DNA from: Sialis fuliginosa
Taxonomy: Eukaryota; Arthropoda; Insecta; Megaloptera; Sialidae
Direction of reading: 5' to 3'
Length of the DNA stretch: 64,000 bases
Assembly (NCBI GenBank): GCA_961205875.1
Contig: OY540814.1
Coordinates: 23,566,151-23,630,150, forward strand
Shown here: piece by piece, positions 7,561-18,606 of the stretch
How the letters are laid out: each line of letters opens with the position of its first letter
How positions within the stretch are numbered: the first letter of the stretch is position 1
The notes under the pieces: generated by a model
What the model saw: the letters and a program-made list of their open reading frames with translations, nothing else
Told to the model about the DNA's origin: nothing
The model's database searches: none
Made by a program: the position numbers and the translations under genes

Positions 7561-10500
7561 TTACACTTGCGTTATATCACCATCTTGGTTGGCTGCCACA
7601 ACCCAGTTTGCGGCCCTGTTCAGGTCCCACTGGTTTGCGGCGAGGGCCCCGTTACAGAGACCCAGGTCCACAAACGGGTGCTCAGTCTTGAGGATATTCT
7701 GCAGCTTCGTCAGTTTTATAGCCTTGTGCACGTCCCAGTTTGAGTGCTCCAGTGCAAGCAGACACTGTTCAGCTGATATCTGAAATAGATTTGAAATTAT
7801 GCCAAATATCAAGAAAACAAAACAAATTCAAATACTCACTTCTGTTCCAAGTACTTTTGACATTATCCTGACTTGATCCGACTCTAGACCTCTCGCCCTT
7901 GGGCTTGGCTTGGTGTCTGCAAACTCCAGCAAATCCTCGCAGCTAACATGGTCCGTCGCATGCCTCAACAGTGCCTCGTTATCAGTCAAAACGTTTTCGT
8001 CCTGTTTTTTACATTCAAAATCTCCACCGTTTTTTCTTTCGGCTGATTCTAGAAAGTTTTTCTTTAATCTCGCCGTATCTACTCTGTGCTGTGTTGATTT
8101 CATATTCTCGTCATTGAGGAACACGTTCCTTTGCTTGAAAGAATCCCCAAATTCTTGCGAAGTCTCTTCTAGCTCATCTAATGCTGCAAGATTAGAATCT
8201 ATCTGTTCTTCAAAATGTAACGACTGCGTATCGAAATCTGTGTCTTCCATTTGTTGTTTGAAAGGGTTATGGTTAATATACGCAGGTTCTGTTGCCATCT
8301 TTCCATCAGGGACAATTTTAACACGATTCTGAGAGAAATCGAACCCCCTTATCGAGTTATTTGTAGAGATATCTTCAGGTGTGATGACATTCACCTTATT
8401 TAATGTTCGTTGGATACTTGAAGCGGGTATTATAAGAGGATGTTTTCTTGTGTGTCGTTTAGACACAGATGTCATCTTAGATCTGTCCCTTGGAGGAAGA
8501 GGTATGGGGTTAGTATCCTCGCTTCTGCATTCAGTGTAACTTGGAGGTGGTACACAAGTTTCACTAGAAACGCTGTTATTTTTTTGTGCTTGCCTCCGAT
8601 CTTTACTGACCACTTCCTTCCCGTCTACAAACACTTCGTCGTCATCATCAATACATTCGACAGACTCTGCGCTAGGTTTTTTGACAGGTTTGAGTTTGGT
8701 TTTGACACGAGGCTTGATGACAGATATGTTCCCAGACTTCAGCATCCTTAGAGGGTTGTCCGAACACATCATGTGGTTGTTGATTGCTACTTCGGGTGTA
8801 GGGACTTCTACTAGACTCTTGTACGCAAGTTCTGCTTCTTCTGTTAACGTGGACTAAGGAAAGGTGGCCAGGGATAATGGGCAAATAGAAAAAACAAAAA
8901 AACAAAAACAAAAAAATAAATGAAATTAAAATAAAACGTAGAAACAAAATTAAAGATACCAAAATAAGAATATGTATATTTGACAGTAGCAGTACATGGG
9001 TGTAGTATTTGGACAAACGTTTGTTACTTAATTATCTAGTGTCTTCTCAACTGATGTCTGCAAATAAATTTTCACTTTAACTTTAGAACCTTAATCAAGC
9101 AAGTTTTACCTGTACTTGAATATCAGCTGAGAAAACGTATAGTATCGTTTATTCATTATCATAGAATATACTGTAAATTGTTAAATAGCAAGTGCAACTA
9201 TAATTTGTATAGACGAAGCAATGCAGTAGTATATAAATAACAATATTATTGAATAATGTAGCTACAGTAATTATAAAATTAATTTATCTAATAAAAAAGC
9301 TTCTCGTATCTTTGATATTGCGAGGAAGCAAAAAATGAAATCAGCTACTGTTATAAATTTTACAGAAAATCAAAGCTAAGGTAAAGTTTGTTTTAATATC
9401 ACTATCGAGAATTATTAAATACATACTATGTAGAACATAACCGTAACCCAGAAGACTAGAGGTACTGAGAGCTGCCAACTATAACAAAGGGTTGGCAGCC
9501 GTAGAACCCACAGAAAGTGATCATGCATATTTAATATTACCATGCAGAGTTAGTAACACTATATTGGGCGGATATACATATTTAAAAGTCTACACTATCA
9601 TAATGGCTGCTACAAATTATAATATCTGAGGATAGAATGGTAACCAACATTCAGCATCAATAAATTGACGTTATCGTTCAATAATATGTACATAATTTAA
9701 ACGTATTTATCTCTAATCAGTCAATATATAAAGTCAATATATAAAACAATGCACAATCAAAAGACCACATTTTTGTTTCAATTATTACAAGAGATACACG
9801 TGACAAATTATTTATTGGTGTATGATTTATTTATTCTTTTAATGAATTTATAGTAGTTTAATATTAGATATATACGTATATGTTGTAATCAATAGAATTT
9901 ATTACAATTACAATATGGAAATTAATTTGTAACACAAGATTGTCTTCTAACTAACATATTTTCAGCAAAACCTCATTAATCTGAACTAGTGTTGAGTATT
10001 GGGGAATTTCTCCATTGGTGATAAACTTTTGGCAGCATGTAAGTAATGTAATTTTTATTTATCTAAAGAAATATCAAACGTTTTCATCTTCCGCTCTGGA
10101 TCAACTGCGTCCAGATCATTGAAAACTTATTGTAATTGTCTTCCATTCAAATTAACGAGACTATACTGTATAATGTATAAGTATAGAAGATACCCTGCTC
10201 ATAACTATCATAAATACACACAAAAACTGAACTAAACTATCAATTACAACATAAAATCTACAACCACAGAGATGGAATATAACCAGAGCGATAATTTAAT
10301 GTTAAAATGCTAAATCCATAAATGAAAAAGCATAGTTTTTTTTTTTTAATCTAGACTCTAGAGTAGTGAATACTAAATCATTGAACACAAGTTACCGGTA
10401 GTTTGTGAGAAATATTTTATACTATAATGTAGTTTACGGATAAAATTAACGTTTTTAGTTTAAATAATACGAAAAGGACATACCCATTATTTTCTGTCTC

Positions 10501-13500
10501 TTTACTTCTATTTGTTCTATTTATGATATTTATGATTACCAGACAAGCCGCATTTTGTAGAACACTTCTATATTTGTATTAAACCCACGCGTTTTGTTAT
10601 CTCTCGAGTTAGATACCATCTCTGTATCTAGCACACGCTGCATCACTTTTACACTATTCACAAACTAGAATCGGACGAGGAATCAGAGATATGCTGCCAG
10701 CGGGCGACAGTGGTAGGTGACAGGCCGCTCAACGCACTCGAGCTAGGCGGTGGAGACTTGGACATGGATTTGAACCCAGAATCAGGTCTCAAATACTGCA
10801 TATCTGCCGTTGCTAAATTCTTCTGGACATTCTTCAATGCGAGATCAACATTCTTAGATGAGCTTTTGTTGGGAAACTTAAACACATTGGCTGCTTCGTG
10901 GGCGTATATCTCACGACGGGTCTGCGGAAGGAGGTCAGATCTGATACTACTGTTGCTCGTTGAAAGTCGTGATAGATTACTGTGCTTCCGCCTCCCGCGG
11001 TTTCTCAACTCCATGTCAGAATGAGTGACAGACCCAGCACTCGTATACTCGCTATCAGAAGAACTCGAATCTGGGATCTGAGGGTTATAACTCTGCCTGC
11101 GAAGGTTCCTTTCTCTGATGGTTTTCCCTGACTTCTTGAAAACCTGATTTCTGGCTGCATTTCTTGTTTCTGATAGAGACAGAGCCCTCGGCCGGCCGGG
11201 ACTGATTGCGCACGGTTCGTAGAACAACCTGGTCCTCTCTAGTTGCATCTGCTGGTAGTACTCTGTGTCGTACTGTTGAGTGTAATTGTTCTTCTGTGCG
11301 TACTGGTCATCATACATCTCCCATTGGTCCATGTACGTGTTCTCACCTCCGGCAGGTACAAATTCGTTTATGGAATAGTTTATCCCGTTCTGTTGATCTC
11401 CGTACCAGTACGCTCCTGAATTTTTCATTGGGGATTGGACGTATTTGCATTTGGAATATGGCACGAAACCCTTGTTACCGTATTCAGGTGAAAAAATGTA
11501 ATTGGAATTAACGTATGTTTTTCGAGTCATTGTGTCTGATTTTGTTAGGGTCCTGAGTGACCCATTTCGAAAAGGATTTGTATCGATATTGCAAGAAGAG
11601 TTTTCTAAGATACTGTCATCGATGACTAGATCCAGCAGCTTCTTCTGTAAAACTTTCTGGTCATATATAACCTTACGTTCTGCTGCATTTTGAGAAGCCG
11701 CATTTTCATGGGCAGTCTTGATATCCCGATAAGAATTATGGGGGGCGGTTGGTTCTGTTATATGATACCTAGCACTATCGTTTCTGTACTTGTACTGTTT
11801 TTGCTGCTCTGCTTTATTTTGATCAGGGTTCTGCTCGACATTATTCACATCTTGGGGCTTATTTTCTTGTACGTTCTGGTTCTTTTGCCTCATGGAGCCC
11901 CGTTTTGAGTCAGAGCGTTTAAGAGTTGATTCATCTACAGGCGTGTTTGGGTCGTCTTGAGGTTTTTCGGAGAGGAAAGGTTTTGTGAGTATTTCACGTG
12001 ATTTGGCAAAACAGAATTCGGCGGAAGCTCTGTCCCACAGGGGGAGACGAAACGCGGAGTTTGCCGAGTCGTTCAGGGAAGTTAAAGACGAACGTAAGCG
12101 CTGCTATTTTGATTGATAGGATTTACGTGAGATAAAAAGATAAATGAAATAAAAAAAGAAATTAAATATAGGATCAGGATGATGAAAAAGGATCAAATTT
12201 AATAGAAACCCAGTATTAGTAAATTTGATATAAAGATAACACCACCTACCAGGGACAAACTGACCATTTGGATAAATATACAGGGTGAATAAAAAGTAAA
12301 TTTAAAGTTAATATTTTAGACTGCAGAAGTCACCTTGTATGATATCACTTGCTCTTTGTCAATTAGTCCCTGCCTTCTTTTATAACTTATGTTAGTAGAA
12401 ATGTGAAATATTAACTACAATTTGAGAATAATATAAATAACAGAGATCAAACAATAAATTATATATATATATTTGTATGTATACAAGTTTACAGTAAATT
12501 CAAACAAGAAAATACTAGAGATTCGTTTCACTTAACACTAACATAATTTAATAAAAATACGTTAATAAAATCCATTAGACCCAACACAGATTATAAAAGA
12601 TCATTGTTAGTCGAATTTGGAAAAGTGTAAATAAATATAAAGGTGAAATATAATAATAAATAACATTTAACTATAATTCAGTTACCTGCAGGTCTGGTAT
12701 CGACTGCGCCTCTTCCGAGAAGTTCCTCCGTTCATTCTTGCCACCGTCAGCATCCGAAGCCCCTCCAGTGTTGGGGAACCGGAAGCTAAACTTACGTTTA
12801 TTCGGGGACATCGGCGTCGTCGGTAATGGCTCGGATTCCAAATCATTCATCGACCTGGCTGTCAGTTCAGTTGCAAGTTCGATGGCAGAGTCAAGTATCT
12901 TTTGATCGTGAGCTGATATTGGCTTGACGGCCGCTTGTTTCTTCTTGTGGCCAAGGCGGGAAGTCAGCTCACGCAGCTCATTGCATTTATTGACTCCGTC
13001 GTGGTCTAAGGGAGATGCAGGCGTACCCGGTAAGGGTGATTTCAGGTTGCGGAACATTGTCTCCATTTCATCAAGTAATGAAGGCCCAAAGTCAAAGGTT
13101 TTCTAAAAAGAAATGATATAAAACTAGGCTATATAAAAATCTAATTTTAAGATAGAGATGTGCATAAGTACAAAAAAAATGTATTTAAGTACAAATATAA
13201 GTACTTTCTATAGTTGTACTTAATTTTATGTAATTACAATTACATTTGTATAAATTTAAAATTAAAAAAGTACTATATAAATATGTAAAAGTAGACTATA
13301 GGTATAATGTACATTTTAAGACCATTTAGAAGTTTCTACAATTTACAGTTCTCGAGTTCTATGTCACCAAAGACAACAATTAAATTACCTCTGATCTTGG
13401 ACTGTCAGCTACAAGATTTTCCTCATCACTGATTTCATGGTACTCATGATCAGTCTGCGGTGTGGGCTGTGGGGGCCAGCACTCCGGGGGTGTCAGCTGC

Positions 13501-16500
13501 TCGAGCTGTCTTGCTGACAGAGCTATGTGATCGCTGGCATGCAGACTTGTTGAACCAGGCTGCAAGAATAACAACAACACTTATAAAGTTATTTCGTCAA
13601 CTTTGGATTTATGCTCTGTAAACGTACCGTTACCGCTGATGGCAGGTTGGTGAGGGGCTGCGGCAGAGAAGGGAGCCCCCCCGCCGTAGCCTGCAGCAGC
13701 GGTGTCTGGTCCAGATCCTCGTGAGGCTTGTACGGTGCCACCACCTGTCTTGGCAAGTGGTTGTACTGTTGCTGCCAAATACAACGCATCAGTACAGTTT
13801 AACTCGATTGTAAACCGTGAAAATAAATAATAAATACTTACACCGAAATAGAACAGGTCACCAAAATATGCTCCGTCTAAACCCACATGCCCTACACAAA
13901 TAAAAACACATTGTTCATTACCGCAATGTTCCTGTAATAATGTACTAAAGGTACAGTCAAAATTGGTTAAGTAACGTTATATTATTATTTTAGTATTATA
14001 ATTTATTTAGCCTTTCAACTAGGACTGTTATGCTTGATGCGGGGATCGTTTATTAATACCCGTAGTTAAAGGGTTAAATAAAGATATTTTGTTTTAATTT
14101 TTTATAGATAGTAATAACCGAGTCTGACTGTGGACTAATAATTCAGGCTGTCTAGGCTACAAAGTACCTAAAATAGGAATTTTTAGGTACAATTTTGCTA
14201 CTTACAGGCCAAAAACACGCTTTTTTAAGCTGTAATAACTAATAAAGTTTAACTTTTCTTAAGTTGATACCTCTGGAAAATAAACATTTTTTTAGTACAG
14301 AACATTTACTGAAAATTAGGACCTGATATCTTCAAAAGTAAAATTGTTCAATTCTTTAAAAAATGGTAGCACTAAAAATTTTTTTATTATAAACCAATTC
14401 AATTGTTTCATAGAACCAACAATATTAAAATAATAATAGCTAAGAACCTGCTCTAAATTATTTTTTTGTATAATACTTATTTAGACCGCTATTCAGCAAA
14501 AATCAGAAAATCTGAAGAATTTTGCAATTGAACCATGGTTTACACATGATGCGGGCAACCAAAATCGGAGCAAACTTAGGGTTTTATACTAAACCACATT
14601 TGTAACAAATCCTGTAAGTAGCAAAACTGTACTTAAAAAAACCTGTTTTAGCCTTCACAGCCGGGACTATAAAACTAATCTGAATTAACATAAAATAAAA
14701 ATAAAATAAATAATAAATGCTACCACATGATGCACGTACATACAGACTATATGACTACATCAGGCTTTAAATATTGAGAAATTAACTGAAAATTATAAAT
14801 ATTTTCCACTGACTCAGGTATCAAAAGTTCTTCAGCATAAGCTAAAAAATTGATTTAAAAAATATATTTTCCTGATCCAAAATCTTGGAAAAAGGGTCTT
14901 AAAGGGGTAAAAAGGGGGCTCAAAGTTAACATATAAAATACTTTAATATATTTATATTTATATAGTATTTTATATTATGGCGTATTAATATTTTAAGCCT
15001 GGTTAAAACTATTAATATTTATATAATAACTCATGGTCATTTTGTATAAATGATGAAGCTAAATAAAATATACAGATGATTAGCAACTTTTCATACCAAT
15101 TATTCAATAATTAATTGTTGTTATGATGTATGAAATAATAAAATTTAAAATAAATCCATATGAACTAAGTTTCCGGACTGTTATCCATGTTGTTGTATTT
15201 CCTTACTTGACAGAGTTTTCTTCAGAAGTGTTTTTGAAACTAAAACTCTTCTGATATGAGAGTCAAGTAAGGAAATACAACAACTTGAACAACAGTCCAG
15301 ACATTCAGTTCATATGTACAACGGCCACGAAAGCTAACAAAAGTAAAATAAATACACATCTATTCTTATTCAATTTTGTGTAAAAAAGCACGATATTGAT
15401 AATGATAATAGCGCATGTACCCAGCGATCTGACATTTATCTCATTAATGGAAAAAGATTAACTTTACTTTAACAAATCACTTAAACATTTCAAGTAGTTT
15501 AAATGAATTGAAAACTACTTAAATGCAGTTGAATTCAAGTTTAAATATCTTTGTCCGTTACTGAGATGTAACATCCTGATTCAGGCCGCTGGGTATAGTA
15601 CTTTATGCTACACCGTTCCACAAACACAAAGTACTACTGAGATGGTTCTCTACGTTTATGCTTACCGTCAATAGTGTTAATCAGCTCTACACAAAAAAAT
15701 AAATAATATTCATAATCAATTCAACGCATCACGACATCTCTCTCTTTAATTATTTTTAGGTTCTAGATAAAAACAACTATAATTTAATTATTGTTAATTA
15801 ACGCAAAGATTATTCTATTATTTTATCTAAAACCTAATAGTTTAGTTAGTAAATGATTAGTTTATCTGCGAGATAATAATAATAACACATGAGGGATTCA
15901 GTCGATAACTGCTTCAACTCGTGAAAGTAAATAACAAAGTAACAATGTAACGTAACTAACCTGTATGTTTGAGATCGCCCTGAGGTGCGCTGATCATCTC
16001 TGATCTCAGTTTGCGCCTTGTGGATGAGTACTTTGACTCTGAGCGAGAAAAGGTGTCTGTCGGCCTATTGGGAGCTGACGGCAGGTTTGTTCCTATGTAG
16101 GCAACCGTGTGAGCTGGGTCAAACAGACCAGTCTTGCCATTAGCCAGCACGCCCTTCCACATTGCACTCCCGCCTGTTTAAAAAACTAGTTATTAACGAA
16201 TACTTGAAAATTATTTCAGGAAGAATGGGAGTACTTTTGAAAATATTACCATAAATCTGAAATTTTGAGGAATGAAAGATAACTATATCAAATATTCACT
16301 GTCAATTTTTTTTTTAGATTGATTGTCCACACCGTTTTTAAGGAATTCATTTTAAATAATAAATGCAAAAATTTGATGATAACCCCAATGTGATTAAAAA
16401 TAATTGATGCAGTGCGGCAACACTGCAAGATCTTTGAATAGGGCGAAATTCAAAATATTTCTGAGCCTGCAGCAGTCAAAGCATAATCTCCACTCCTCCT

Positions 16501-18606
16501 TAAGTATCGTTTAAATACCTGTACTAGTGACGGCTCCCTTGTCCAGCACAGTGATGATATCCCCAACACGGTGCTGCAGCTTGTCCTTCCTGCTGGGCCC
16601 AGGCTCAGACTCAGCAACCGCCTGTACTTGCTCTGGCCTGCATTCAGGCAGCATTGTCGCCAACTCAGAGAACTTGGGCCTCTTGGCCAGGTCGTGTGTC
16701 CAGCACCTGTTCATCACTCCGTAGTACTCCCTCGGACAGCATTCCGGCTGCTCTAGACGCTGGTAGTTAGGCTCGTCTATCGCCTCGAGTATTTGGTGGC
16801 CCGTGAGAGCAGCCCACGGTTGGAAGCCATAAGAGAACATCTCCCACAGAGTGACGCCGTATGCCCACACATCGCTGGCTGAAGTGAACCGCAGGTAACT
16901 TATACATTCTGGAGCGCACCTGTGTTAATAATTACTCAATTAGTACGGTGTTAGATGATGGTCGTAGTTGTGAGTACTTACCAAGCTATTGGCAGTTTGA
17001 GGTGAACGTTGAAATTAGTTTGGTAATAGTCTTTTCCTTGACCAAGAGCACGGCTCAATCCAAAGTCAGATATCTTCACTTTATTTTTAGAAAATACAAG
17101 AATATTTCTAGCTGCTAAATCTCTGCAATAAATAGACACGTCATAAAATTTTATTAGTTTTAAATTAAGAATGTTATAAATTTGATGAGTTAACAATGGA
17201 TATTACTAACAATGTCTATAAATTACATAAAAAATGATTAAATATTGTAGAAAATATCCAACCAATTCACAGAACAACTAGGAATTATACAGAATGACTA
17301 GAGATTATGTAAAATAATTAGGTACAAAAGGACTAGTAACGTATGTAAATATACCTGTGTATCAGTCGTTTGTTTTCTAAATACTGCATTCCATCACATA
17401 TTTGTAGAGCAAAGTCGCACAGAGTGAGCACAGGGAAGCTGGCTCTAAGCGACGGCTCTTTAAGGCATTCCAGTAACGATCTCAGCGGAGCTAGCTCTGT
17501 CACCTGAACACACAACGCCCATATGTAATAAACACTCACCTTACACCATCCATTCAGAAGCTAACGCAACTGACTACATATTAAACAAACAAATTAAGTC
17601 CAATCAATATCACACAAAGTAGAATTGTCTTTGTTTATACGTGAGTTTATTTGATGAGGTTTGTAGTCAGTGGCTTTAGCTTGTGTTGTTTCCCTTACCA
17701 ACATAAGGCTATCAGTGTCTAAGACTACCCCATACAATCTGACAATGTGTTCATGGTCTATTGAGTGCATTATCGCAGCCTCTTTCAGGAACTCTATCGG
17801 GTTACTCTGCATCCTCTCACGGGACAGACATTTGATAGCCACTTGGATCTGTTAATTGTATTTACACATTAGTTTAAGATCAAATAACAATAAATATCAA
17901 TATTTCTTGCTCAAAACATATATATTTAGATAAACTAACTCTGTCTCCATCGTTGGTCCACACGCCTTGCTGCACGACCCCGAATTCCCCCATTCCAAGC
18001 TCCTTGTTGACAACAATGCTCTCCGCACTGATAATGTGCTTGTTTGGCATGCGGTGGGGTTCCGTCCTTTCGTTAGCAGCCCCACAGCGACCCTCTTCTG
18101 AAGGGGGCCCAATCCCACTTCCGCCCACTCCCTGCCACCCATTTAATTTCTGTTTTACAAGTTTTAGAAAAAAAAATTAAAAGAAAAAAAATAAAGAAAA
18201 TTGGAATGAGTTCACTAACCTGGTCATTTTTATTTGGAAGTAACATTTTTTTGAACTTGGACAGGTAGTTCTGCGGGTAGTATTTGTTAAAATACTTCTT
18301 GAGACGGCGCATTTCGGGCTTGGACATTCCGAGCTGATATAGGTCTTCTTCAGTCACATATTTTAGCTGAGATGTGTTTTGTATTTTCAGATCGTTCCTG
18401 TGAATACAAGTACATATTGTTATAAACATGTGTATATAAATGCAAGTACACGAGGTAGAACGTACTTGATGCTGTTATAATAATGTTCCAATTCAGCTTC
18501 AATTAAAAATTCGTATAACCCGGGTCCTTTCGATTCTATAAATATGAAAATTATAAAGTTTAGAGTTTATTTATAAGTATGATTAAATTTTAAATAATTT
18601 ACCCAT
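7561..18606 (-). CDS. Ack: Activated Cdc42 kinase (Ack/TNK2 type), UBA-containing isoform
   Basis: Non-receptor tyrosine kinase acting downstream of Cdc42. Exons (minus): 18606-18603, 18535-18466, 18397-18220, 18149-17940, 17848-17699, 17503-17355, 17122-16982, 16919-16519, 16173-15961, 13891-13842, 13771-13628, 13559-13389, 13102-12686, 8853-7840, 7779-7561; 1176 residues. Only four coding bases (ATGG) lie in the first exon. Order: SAM-like region (about 5-70); kinase with Gly loop GMGEFG (136-141), VAIK Lys160, HRDLAARN (253-260), DFG (273-275) and loop Tyr286/287; SH3 (about 405-462); CRIB ([15 protein letters not shown], 495-509); Pro-rich disordered region including PPPSY and PLPPR; C-terminal UBA-like domain (from about 1105). 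This order is the signature of the Ack/TNK2 family. The gene lies downstream of the ZAD gene on the same strand. Confidence 0.93.
8854..10657. other. Ack intron, including the 3' UTR of the alternative last exon
   Basis: AT-rich sequence with no further exon seen. The bases just left of 10658 should be the 3' UTR of the shorter-domain isoform. A small hairpin GCTGCCAAC/GTTGGCAGC lies around 9471-9499. Confidence 0.5.
10658..12103 (-). CDS. Ack: Alternative terminal coding exon of Ack (no UBA domain)
   Basis: A 482-codon open frame begins directly after an acceptor (AATAG at 12108-12104) in phase 0, which fits the phase-0 donor of the exon ending at 12686. It closes with TGA at 10658-10660. 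Translation is a serine-, tyrosine- and asparagine-rich, probably disordered chain ([10 protein letters not shown] at the start, [11 protein letters not shown] at the end). The exon at 8853-7840 is also phase 0 at its start, so the two are interchangeable. Using this one gives about 1247 residues without the UBA domain. No internal donor that would rejoin the UBA exons in frame was found, so it looks like a mutually exclusive last exon. The bases 11893-12103 lie upstream of the first ATG in the frame but are also coding. Confidence 0.7.
   Translation of the reverse strand, partial: QRLRSSLTSLNDSANSAFRLPLWDRASAEFCFAKSREILTKPFLSEKPQDDPNTPVDESTLKRSDSKRGSMRQKNQNVQENKPQDVNNVEQNPDQNKAEQQKQYKYRNDSARYHITEPTAPHNSYRDIKTAHENAASQNAAERKVIYDQKVLQKKLLDLVIDDSILENSSCNIDTNPFRNGSLRTLTKSDTMTRKTYVNSNYIFSPEYGNKGFVPYSKCKYVQSPMKNSGAYWYGDQQNGINYSINEFVPAGGENTYMDQWEMYDDQYAQKNNYTQQYDTEYYQQMQLERTRLFYEPCAISPGRPRALSLSETRNAARNQVFKKSGKTIRERNLRRQSYNPQIPDSSSSDSEYTSAGSVTHSDMELRNRGRRKHSNLSRLSTSNSSIRSDLLPQTRREIYAHEAANVFKFPNKSSSKNVDLALKNVQKNLATADMQYLRPDSGFKSMSKSPPPSSSALSGLSPTTVARWQHISDSSSDSSL
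14128..14668. mobile_element. Inverted-repeat element in an Ack intron
   Basis: Sequence around 14150-14207 (…TTTTGCTACTTACAGG) pairs with 14610-14660 (CCTGTAAGTAGCAAAA…). Outer ends also resemble each other (GGCTGTCTAGGC near 14147, its partner GCCTTCACAGCC near 14651). The roughly 540 bp between have no coding capacity, as expected of a non-autonomous DNA transposon. No clear target duplication was found, so the ends are approximate. Confidence 0.5.
15157..15316. repeat. 160-bp fold-back sequence in an Ack intron
   Basis: Both ends read CATATGAACT-like inward, and the arms include a nearly exact stretch (TTGTTGTATTTCCTTACTTG, 15192-15211) paired with CAAGTAAGGAAATACAACAA at 15265-15284. 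The loop is about 50 bp. It lies roughly 350 bp downstream, in transcription direction, of the candidate microexon. It could be a MITE or an intronic RNA hairpin. Confidence 0.65.
15666..15686 (-). CDS. Ack: Candidate 21-nt microexon inside the Ack CRIB motif
   Basis: On the minus strand a pyrimidine-rich acceptor (TTTTTTTGTGTAG) and a consensus donor (GTAAGC) flank exactly 21 bases. The upstream exon ends in phase 1 (ACA G) and the downstream exon starts in the matching phase. Inclusion therefore adds seven residues, ELINTID, with no frameshift: [14 protein letters not shown]. The insertion falls between the two conserved halves of the Cdc42-binding motif. It is probably an alternatively spliced cassette; without RNA data a chance pairing of sites cannot be excluded. 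Confidence 0.6.

Follow-up and report, generated by a model that had tools for sequence, protein, structure and literature searches.

A candidate 21-nucleotide cassette microexon between the two halves of the CRIB motif of an insect Ack-like kinase gene

The Ack-like gene and its candidate microexon

The window analysed here is a stretch of DNA of 64,000 nucleotides, and all positions refer to it. On its reverse strand lies a multi-exon gene (Table 1) whose exons were joined by hand into a frame that is open throughout; the exon carrying the start codon was not located, and the gene model begins without one. In Pfam searches, the predicted protein matches SAM_TNK (84 bits) and PK_Tyr_Ser-Thr (287 bits), and gives weak matches to SH3 and UBA that lie below the cut-off. 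Among the matches listed in protein searches, those with a name appear as activated Cdc42 kinase-like, Ack-like or PR2. The domain order and the names of the best matches fit the Ack family, and on these grounds the gene is assigned to it as an Ack-like (PR2) kinase gene.

Two alternative 3' ends follow exon 12, one at 12100-10658 (-) and the other at 8853-7840 plus 7779-7561 (-). The first of these, exon 13a, has its own stop and is without the UBA-like tail, which is carried by exons 13b and 14. The starts of exons 13a and 13b are found in 19/234 and 77/234 orthologue representatives (described below), respectively, and both are found in 2. Since both starts are present in orthologues, the UBA-less isoform looks old in insects as judged from these sequences.

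Table 1. Features of the Ack-like locus discussed in the text (window positions)
Feature	Position	Strand	Description
Ack-like gene as modelled	7561..18535	(-)	SAM, tyrosine kinase, SH3, CRIB, UBA-like tail
Exon 8	15961..16173	(-)	SH3 end and first CRIB half; ends in phase 1
Host intron 8	13892..15960	(-)	2,069 nt, of which 274 nt precede and 1,774 nt follow the candidate microexon
Candidate acceptor and preceding AG-free 49 nt	15687..15737	(-)	U-rich tract, TTGAT at -33, TTTTTTTGTGTAG at end
Acceptor region matching that of exon 9 (13892-13918)	15687..15713	(-)	27 nt, 21/27 identical, in register with the AG
Candidate cassette microexon	15666..15686	(-)	21 nt, phase 1 to phase 1, encodes ELINTID
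Candidate donor	15658..15665	(-)	GTAAGCAT, after ACG
Exon 9	13842..13891	(-)	Second CRIB half

Exon 8 contributes one base of a split codon (AAA CAT ACA G|GTTAGT), and the remaining two bases of that codon open exon 9, so that direct joining of the two exons reads KHTGHVG. Within the intron that separates them, the acceptor TTATTTATTTTTTTGTGTAG ends at 15687, directly before the candidate microexon. The form that includes it is stop-free and keeps its frame unchanged, and the seven added residues fall between the two invariant histidines of the CRIB motif, whose spacing changes from 3 to 10. A preliminary description of this DNA had proposed a microexon here, and its account of the acceptor, the donor, the length of 21 nt, the phase and the placing of ELINTID between KHT and GHVG is correct base for base. 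The junctions at which it proposed to look for spliced reads, 15961 to 15686 and 15666 to 13891, agree with the exon joins. The AG-free zone before the microexon measures 49 nt and is the longest among the seven Ack-like acceptors compared; the other six have 10, 13, 18, 19, 29 and 38 nt.

A 151-base stretch around the microexon has one match in the genome, in a search that skips very common words, and the microexon is therefore not a detectable repeat copy. The RNA structure around it showed nothing unusual (z 0.63). A recursive splice site was considered and rejected, since 21 nt separate the acceptor from the donor, and the intron, of about 2 kb, is short. Downstream of the microexon, at 15157-15316, the same intron contains a 55-base inverted repeat with 50 bases between its arms, which are 87% complementary; this is perhaps a small inverted-repeat transposon.

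Splice-site scores and the twin of the exon 9 acceptor

Splice sites were scored with three models. The generic model uses general insect-like site frequencies, the own-site model was trained on about 14 Ack-like sites and is overfitted, and the mixed model is half of each. Candidate pairs were counted if they were in-frame, stop-free and at most 30 nt apart, with phase 1 only in the scans of the window (128,000 strand-bases) and of a genome sample made up of both strands of 20 other 10-kb segments from this contig (400,000 strand-bases). The intron set comprised 13 Ack-like introns with 7,448 nt in total, in which the intron after exon 12 as scanned includes the alternative exon 13a.

Under the generic model, the microexon acceptor scores 5.3 and its donor 5.7, and with a sum of 11.0 the pair ranks first among 122 in-frame pairs in the Ack-like introns, where the runner-up reaches 5.5. 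No second pair of equal score was found in this frame on either strand of the window, the genome sample contains no pair as good, and only 1/500 dinucleotide shuffles of the host intron attains the score. Similarly, the mixed model finds no equal pair in the genome sample and one in the window, which is the microexon itself. The own-site model is less favourable. With the exon 9 acceptor in its training, it finds 4 pairs by sum and 1 by both scores in the window, microexon included. With that acceptor left out, 23 pairs in the genome sample are equal or better by sum and 7 by both scores, and the window holds 11 by sum; the own-site expectation for equal pairs is 0.12 in the host intron and 0.43 over all Ack-like introns. 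The rarity of the microexon beyond chance depends on the splice model, and the own-site result counts against it.

Taken singly, the acceptor exceeds 13 of the gene's 14 scored acceptors under the generic model and is mid-range, with a score of 8.5, under the own-site model without exon 9. The donor lies above 11/13 of the gene's donors in the generic model, 5/13 in the mixed model and 3/13 in the own-site model with leave-one-out training (score 4.8). The strength of the donor thus varies with the splice model, and in the own-site model it is weak. The exon 8 donor, CAG|GTTAGT, is joint best of 13 (5.9 generic; 10.8 own-site leave-one-out).

These scores bear on the explanation that the site is an unused look-alike, in which a U-rich AG and a GTAAG have come together by chance in an AT-rich intron and are never or almost never spliced in. 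The equal or better pairs under the own-site model are as expected for such a pair, as is a donor that this model places below 10/13 of the gene's own, and the look-elsewhere effect is large because the microexon was picked from the whole window. Against this stand the generic and mixed models, without an equal in 400,000 strand-bases, and the result of the shuffles. Additionally, the long AG-free zone and the similarity to the exon 9 acceptor (below) are unexpected for a random pair, although neither was sought in advance. An unused look-alike is quite possible, though it falls short of probable, and we consider it fairly probable that the microexon is spliced in at some level.

The microexon acceptor and the exon 9 acceptor form the first direct repeat returned by a repeat scan of the host intron. 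The tests of this twin came after it had been seen in the data. Among 120 pairs of acceptors within the gene, the next best match is 16/27 and the mean is 10.5, compared with 21/27 for the microexon and exon 9. The alignment score is attained by 10/2,000 shuffles for the sequence upstream of the AG and by 4/2,000 over both sides of it. Two of the 22,735 AG sites in the genome sample and window reach 21/27 with the exon 9 acceptor, and the microexon is one of them; when only the 447 acceptors scoring at least 4 are considered, the microexon alone reaches 20/27.

On the exon side, the microexon and exon 9 regions both have GACGG..AGCATA, almost equally far from the AG. However, the exon-side similarity is not significant (141/2,000 shuffles attain the score), and a full duplication of exon 9 was rejected for this reason. 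In a 90-base alignment to the exon 9 region, 6 of the 1,111 acceptors scoring at least 2.5 equal the microexon score, the microexon itself being counted. The similarity outside the acceptor is thus not significant, which leaves local copying of the exon 9 acceptor as one possible origin of the twin; alternatively, the two sites may share a functional sequence.

A recent local copy of this kind, joined by a new donor downstream, could also have produced a real but noisy exon, with low, unregulated inclusion that yields some useless Cdc42-blind kinase. The in-register match of the two acceptors and their common GACGG..AGCATA fit such an origin, whereas the similarity beyond the acceptor is not significant in either of the comparisons above. 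The bearing of the orthologues on this explanation is given below.

The CRIB motif and its conservation

The CRIB consensus has been given as ISxPxxxxFxHxxHVG (PMC10047419). The skipped form of the Ack-like protein agrees with the rule of two histidines three apart followed by VG, and has Leu at the aromatic position, as do many orthologues. The Pfam PBD profile recognises the skipped fragment at 22.9 bits (cut-off 21.3), and the full protein scores 19.2, below the cut-off. In the included form the histidine spacing of 10 departs from the rule; its fragment is not recognised by PBD and matches nothing in the Pfam search. A PDB sequence search, run with one fragment and with a profile of 5 rows, returned no chain up to E = 1. 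For the fly kinase DACK, the reviews PMC10047419 and PMC3101793 disagree in their statements on the presence of a CRIB motif.

In human ACK, the section between Ser-461 and His-467 contains residues described as vital to Cdc42 binding: H464A raises the Kd 125-fold and H467A 89-fold, and binding of the double mutant H464A/H467A is undetectable (PMC5500802). According to the same source, the intermolecular beta strand ends at His-464, which contacts Phe-37 of Cdc42, and His-467 is near Asp-63 of Cdc42, a possible switch II contact (PMC5500802). The seven residues of the microexon would fall between the counterparts of these two histidines. Given these mutants and the loss of the PBD match in the included fragment, the suggestion that the insert would weaken binding is well founded as a structural argument. 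With ELINTID present, the CRIB halves would be out of register, and a strong fall in Cdc42 binding is therefore expected. Since the insert could conceivably loop out and leave both halves bound, we infer such a strong loss of affinity rather than assert it.

Inclusion in every transcript would leave this species with an Ack-like kinase that lacks tight Cdc42 binding altogether. The generic model, which puts both splice sites above most of the gene's own, would suit a constitutive exon, but both CRIB halves are intact, as they should be if the joined motif remains in use. A constitutive exon is thus highly improbable.

Orthologues were collected in three protein searches, in which the best 120 of 133, 120 of 7,894 and 120 of 161 matches were listed and which gave 234 distinct representatives from many arthropod orders. 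A CRIB insert was found in 0/234 of these representatives, in which isoforms were merged at 90% identity and could therefore be hidden; in every one, exactly two residues separate the histidines. With isoforms merged and no close relative among the matches listed, this is a weak test of conservation. The representatives include proteins from short contigs (source 'lgn'), and some of these probably represent transcripts. The absence of the insert is as expected for an unused look-alike. It is likewise no sign of evolutionary depth, as expected for a noisy exon. The fly neural microexons that depend on eMIC/Srrm234 show little conservation in mosquito, beetle and bee, as reported in PMC8797185, which would also fit a noisy exon. 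Nevertheless, in view of the similarity tests outside the acceptor, a noisy exon is regarded as improbable. As those fly exons are little conserved in other holometabolous insects, absence elsewhere is also compatible with use of the microexon here.

Among the matches listed, the best full-length one is from the ground beetle Carabus (57%), with no close relative listed, and the names include a caddisfly and no moth, butterfly or lacewing, while several of the rows are without a name. In a tree of the Ack-like protein with 45 rows, the window sequence stands beside beetles (SH-aLRT 97; 95 with 25 rows), apart from one caddisfly, although a clade of the window sequence and the caddisfly (Trichoptera) is not formally rejected (p-AU 0.057). 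The preliminary description had referred to related Lepidoptera. This placement is unsupported, since the tree favours a sister of beetles, and Lepidoptera was rejected as a given fact. The insect may instead belong to an outgroup of beetles, for example among the relatives of lacewings. Searches for stray relatives of exon 8 gave 26 pattern matches in viral contigs and 87 in prokaryote contigs, of which 0 were confirmed.

Known splice systems and the proposed reading

The preliminary description also held that no account of such a device was known. For this exact site this stands, in that no description of it was found in the open-access papers searched, but the idea itself has a precedent in PAK3. 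By residue numbering, the PAK3 b insert presumably lies just after the CRIB core. In mammalian PAK3, exons b and c add 15 and 21 residues, respectively, to the regulatory region. The isoforms b, c and cb are described as having high constitutive kinase activity for which GTPase activation is not needed (PMC10017488). PAK3 thus resembles the candidate in having in-frame cassette exons in a Cdc42/Rac effector kinase (PMC10017488). The b insert, however, is placed between residues 92 and 93 of PAK3a (PMC10017488), whereas the candidate insert is between the CRIB histidines. The PAK3 exons are also longer, and isoforms a and b were shown by Western blot. In addition, PAK3 is a serine/threonine kinase with its own autoinhibitory domain, and the Ack-like protein is a tyrosine kinase.

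Within the Ack family, bovine Ack2 is thought to be a splice form of Ack1 and has a 15-residue insert (PMC3101793). Like the candidate, this is an alternative insert in an Ack-family kinase. Unlike it, the Ack2 insert is described as lying in the C-terminal region, in a protein with 344 fewer residues than Ack1 (PMC3101793), and Ack2 is reported to keep its CRIB motif (PMC10047419).

In the fly eMIC/Srrm234-dependent neural microexons, as reported in PMC8797185, the 3' splice sites are extremely weak and the 5' splice sites weak, the flanking introns are short, a UGC lies near the 3' splice site, and the tracts are rich in UCUC; a CUAAY branch point was taken as a further mark of this class. 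The candidate resembles them as a very short in-frame cassette with a long AG exclusion zone and a strong upstream 5' splice site. It differs in that its 3' site is not weak and its downstream intron is 1,774 nt long. Its own donor is strong or weak according to the splice model. Its UGC is at -42, and it has a U-rich tract with GUGU, no UCUC and the branch-like TTGAT at -33. Membership in the fly eMIC programme was rejected, as most of the eMIC features described in that source are missing. A Pfam SRRM_C search for the eMIC domain gave no match in the genome and none in 14 controls either. If the microexon is regulated, our guess is that another factor is more likely, perhaps a binder of the U-rich acceptor tract.

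The reading we prefer, with a probability of roughly 0.46, is that the 21 bases are a lineage-restricted cassette microexon of the Ack-like (PR2) gene, whose inclusion would strongly weaken Cdc42 binding. Two look-alike acceptors, 1,795 bases apart, lie ahead of the exon 8 donor. In the default transcript, exon 8 would be joined to exon 9, which gives a normal CRIB motif. In some cells, the exon 8 donor would be spliced instead to the twin acceptor upstream, which would bring the 21 nt into the transcript. The product would retain the SAM, kinase and SH3 domains and the tail, and would gain ELINTID between the CRIB histidines. The halves that pair with strand beta-2 of Cdc42 and reach switch II would lose register; Cdc42 binding would fall strongly, and the kinase would still answer to other inputs. 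Such variation of inclusion from cell to cell would be a further assumption of this scheme.

That such a splice switch, acting on two near-identical competing 3' sites, uncouples a Cdc42-effector tyrosine kinase from its GTPase is a doubtful proposition at present. Should it apply, a small shift in the choice between the near-identical competing acceptors would toggle Cdc42 coupling and leave the other domains untouched.

According to PMC3101793, relatively little is known of the part that each domain plays in the regulation of Ack1, and the roles of the fly Ack kinases are not yet dissected. If used, the microexon would give an Ack-family kinase a natural uncoupling allele, produced by splicing and reversible, which would separate Cdc42-dependent from Cdc42-independent functions of Ack. 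It would likewise demonstrate that splicing can act on the CRIB core itself.
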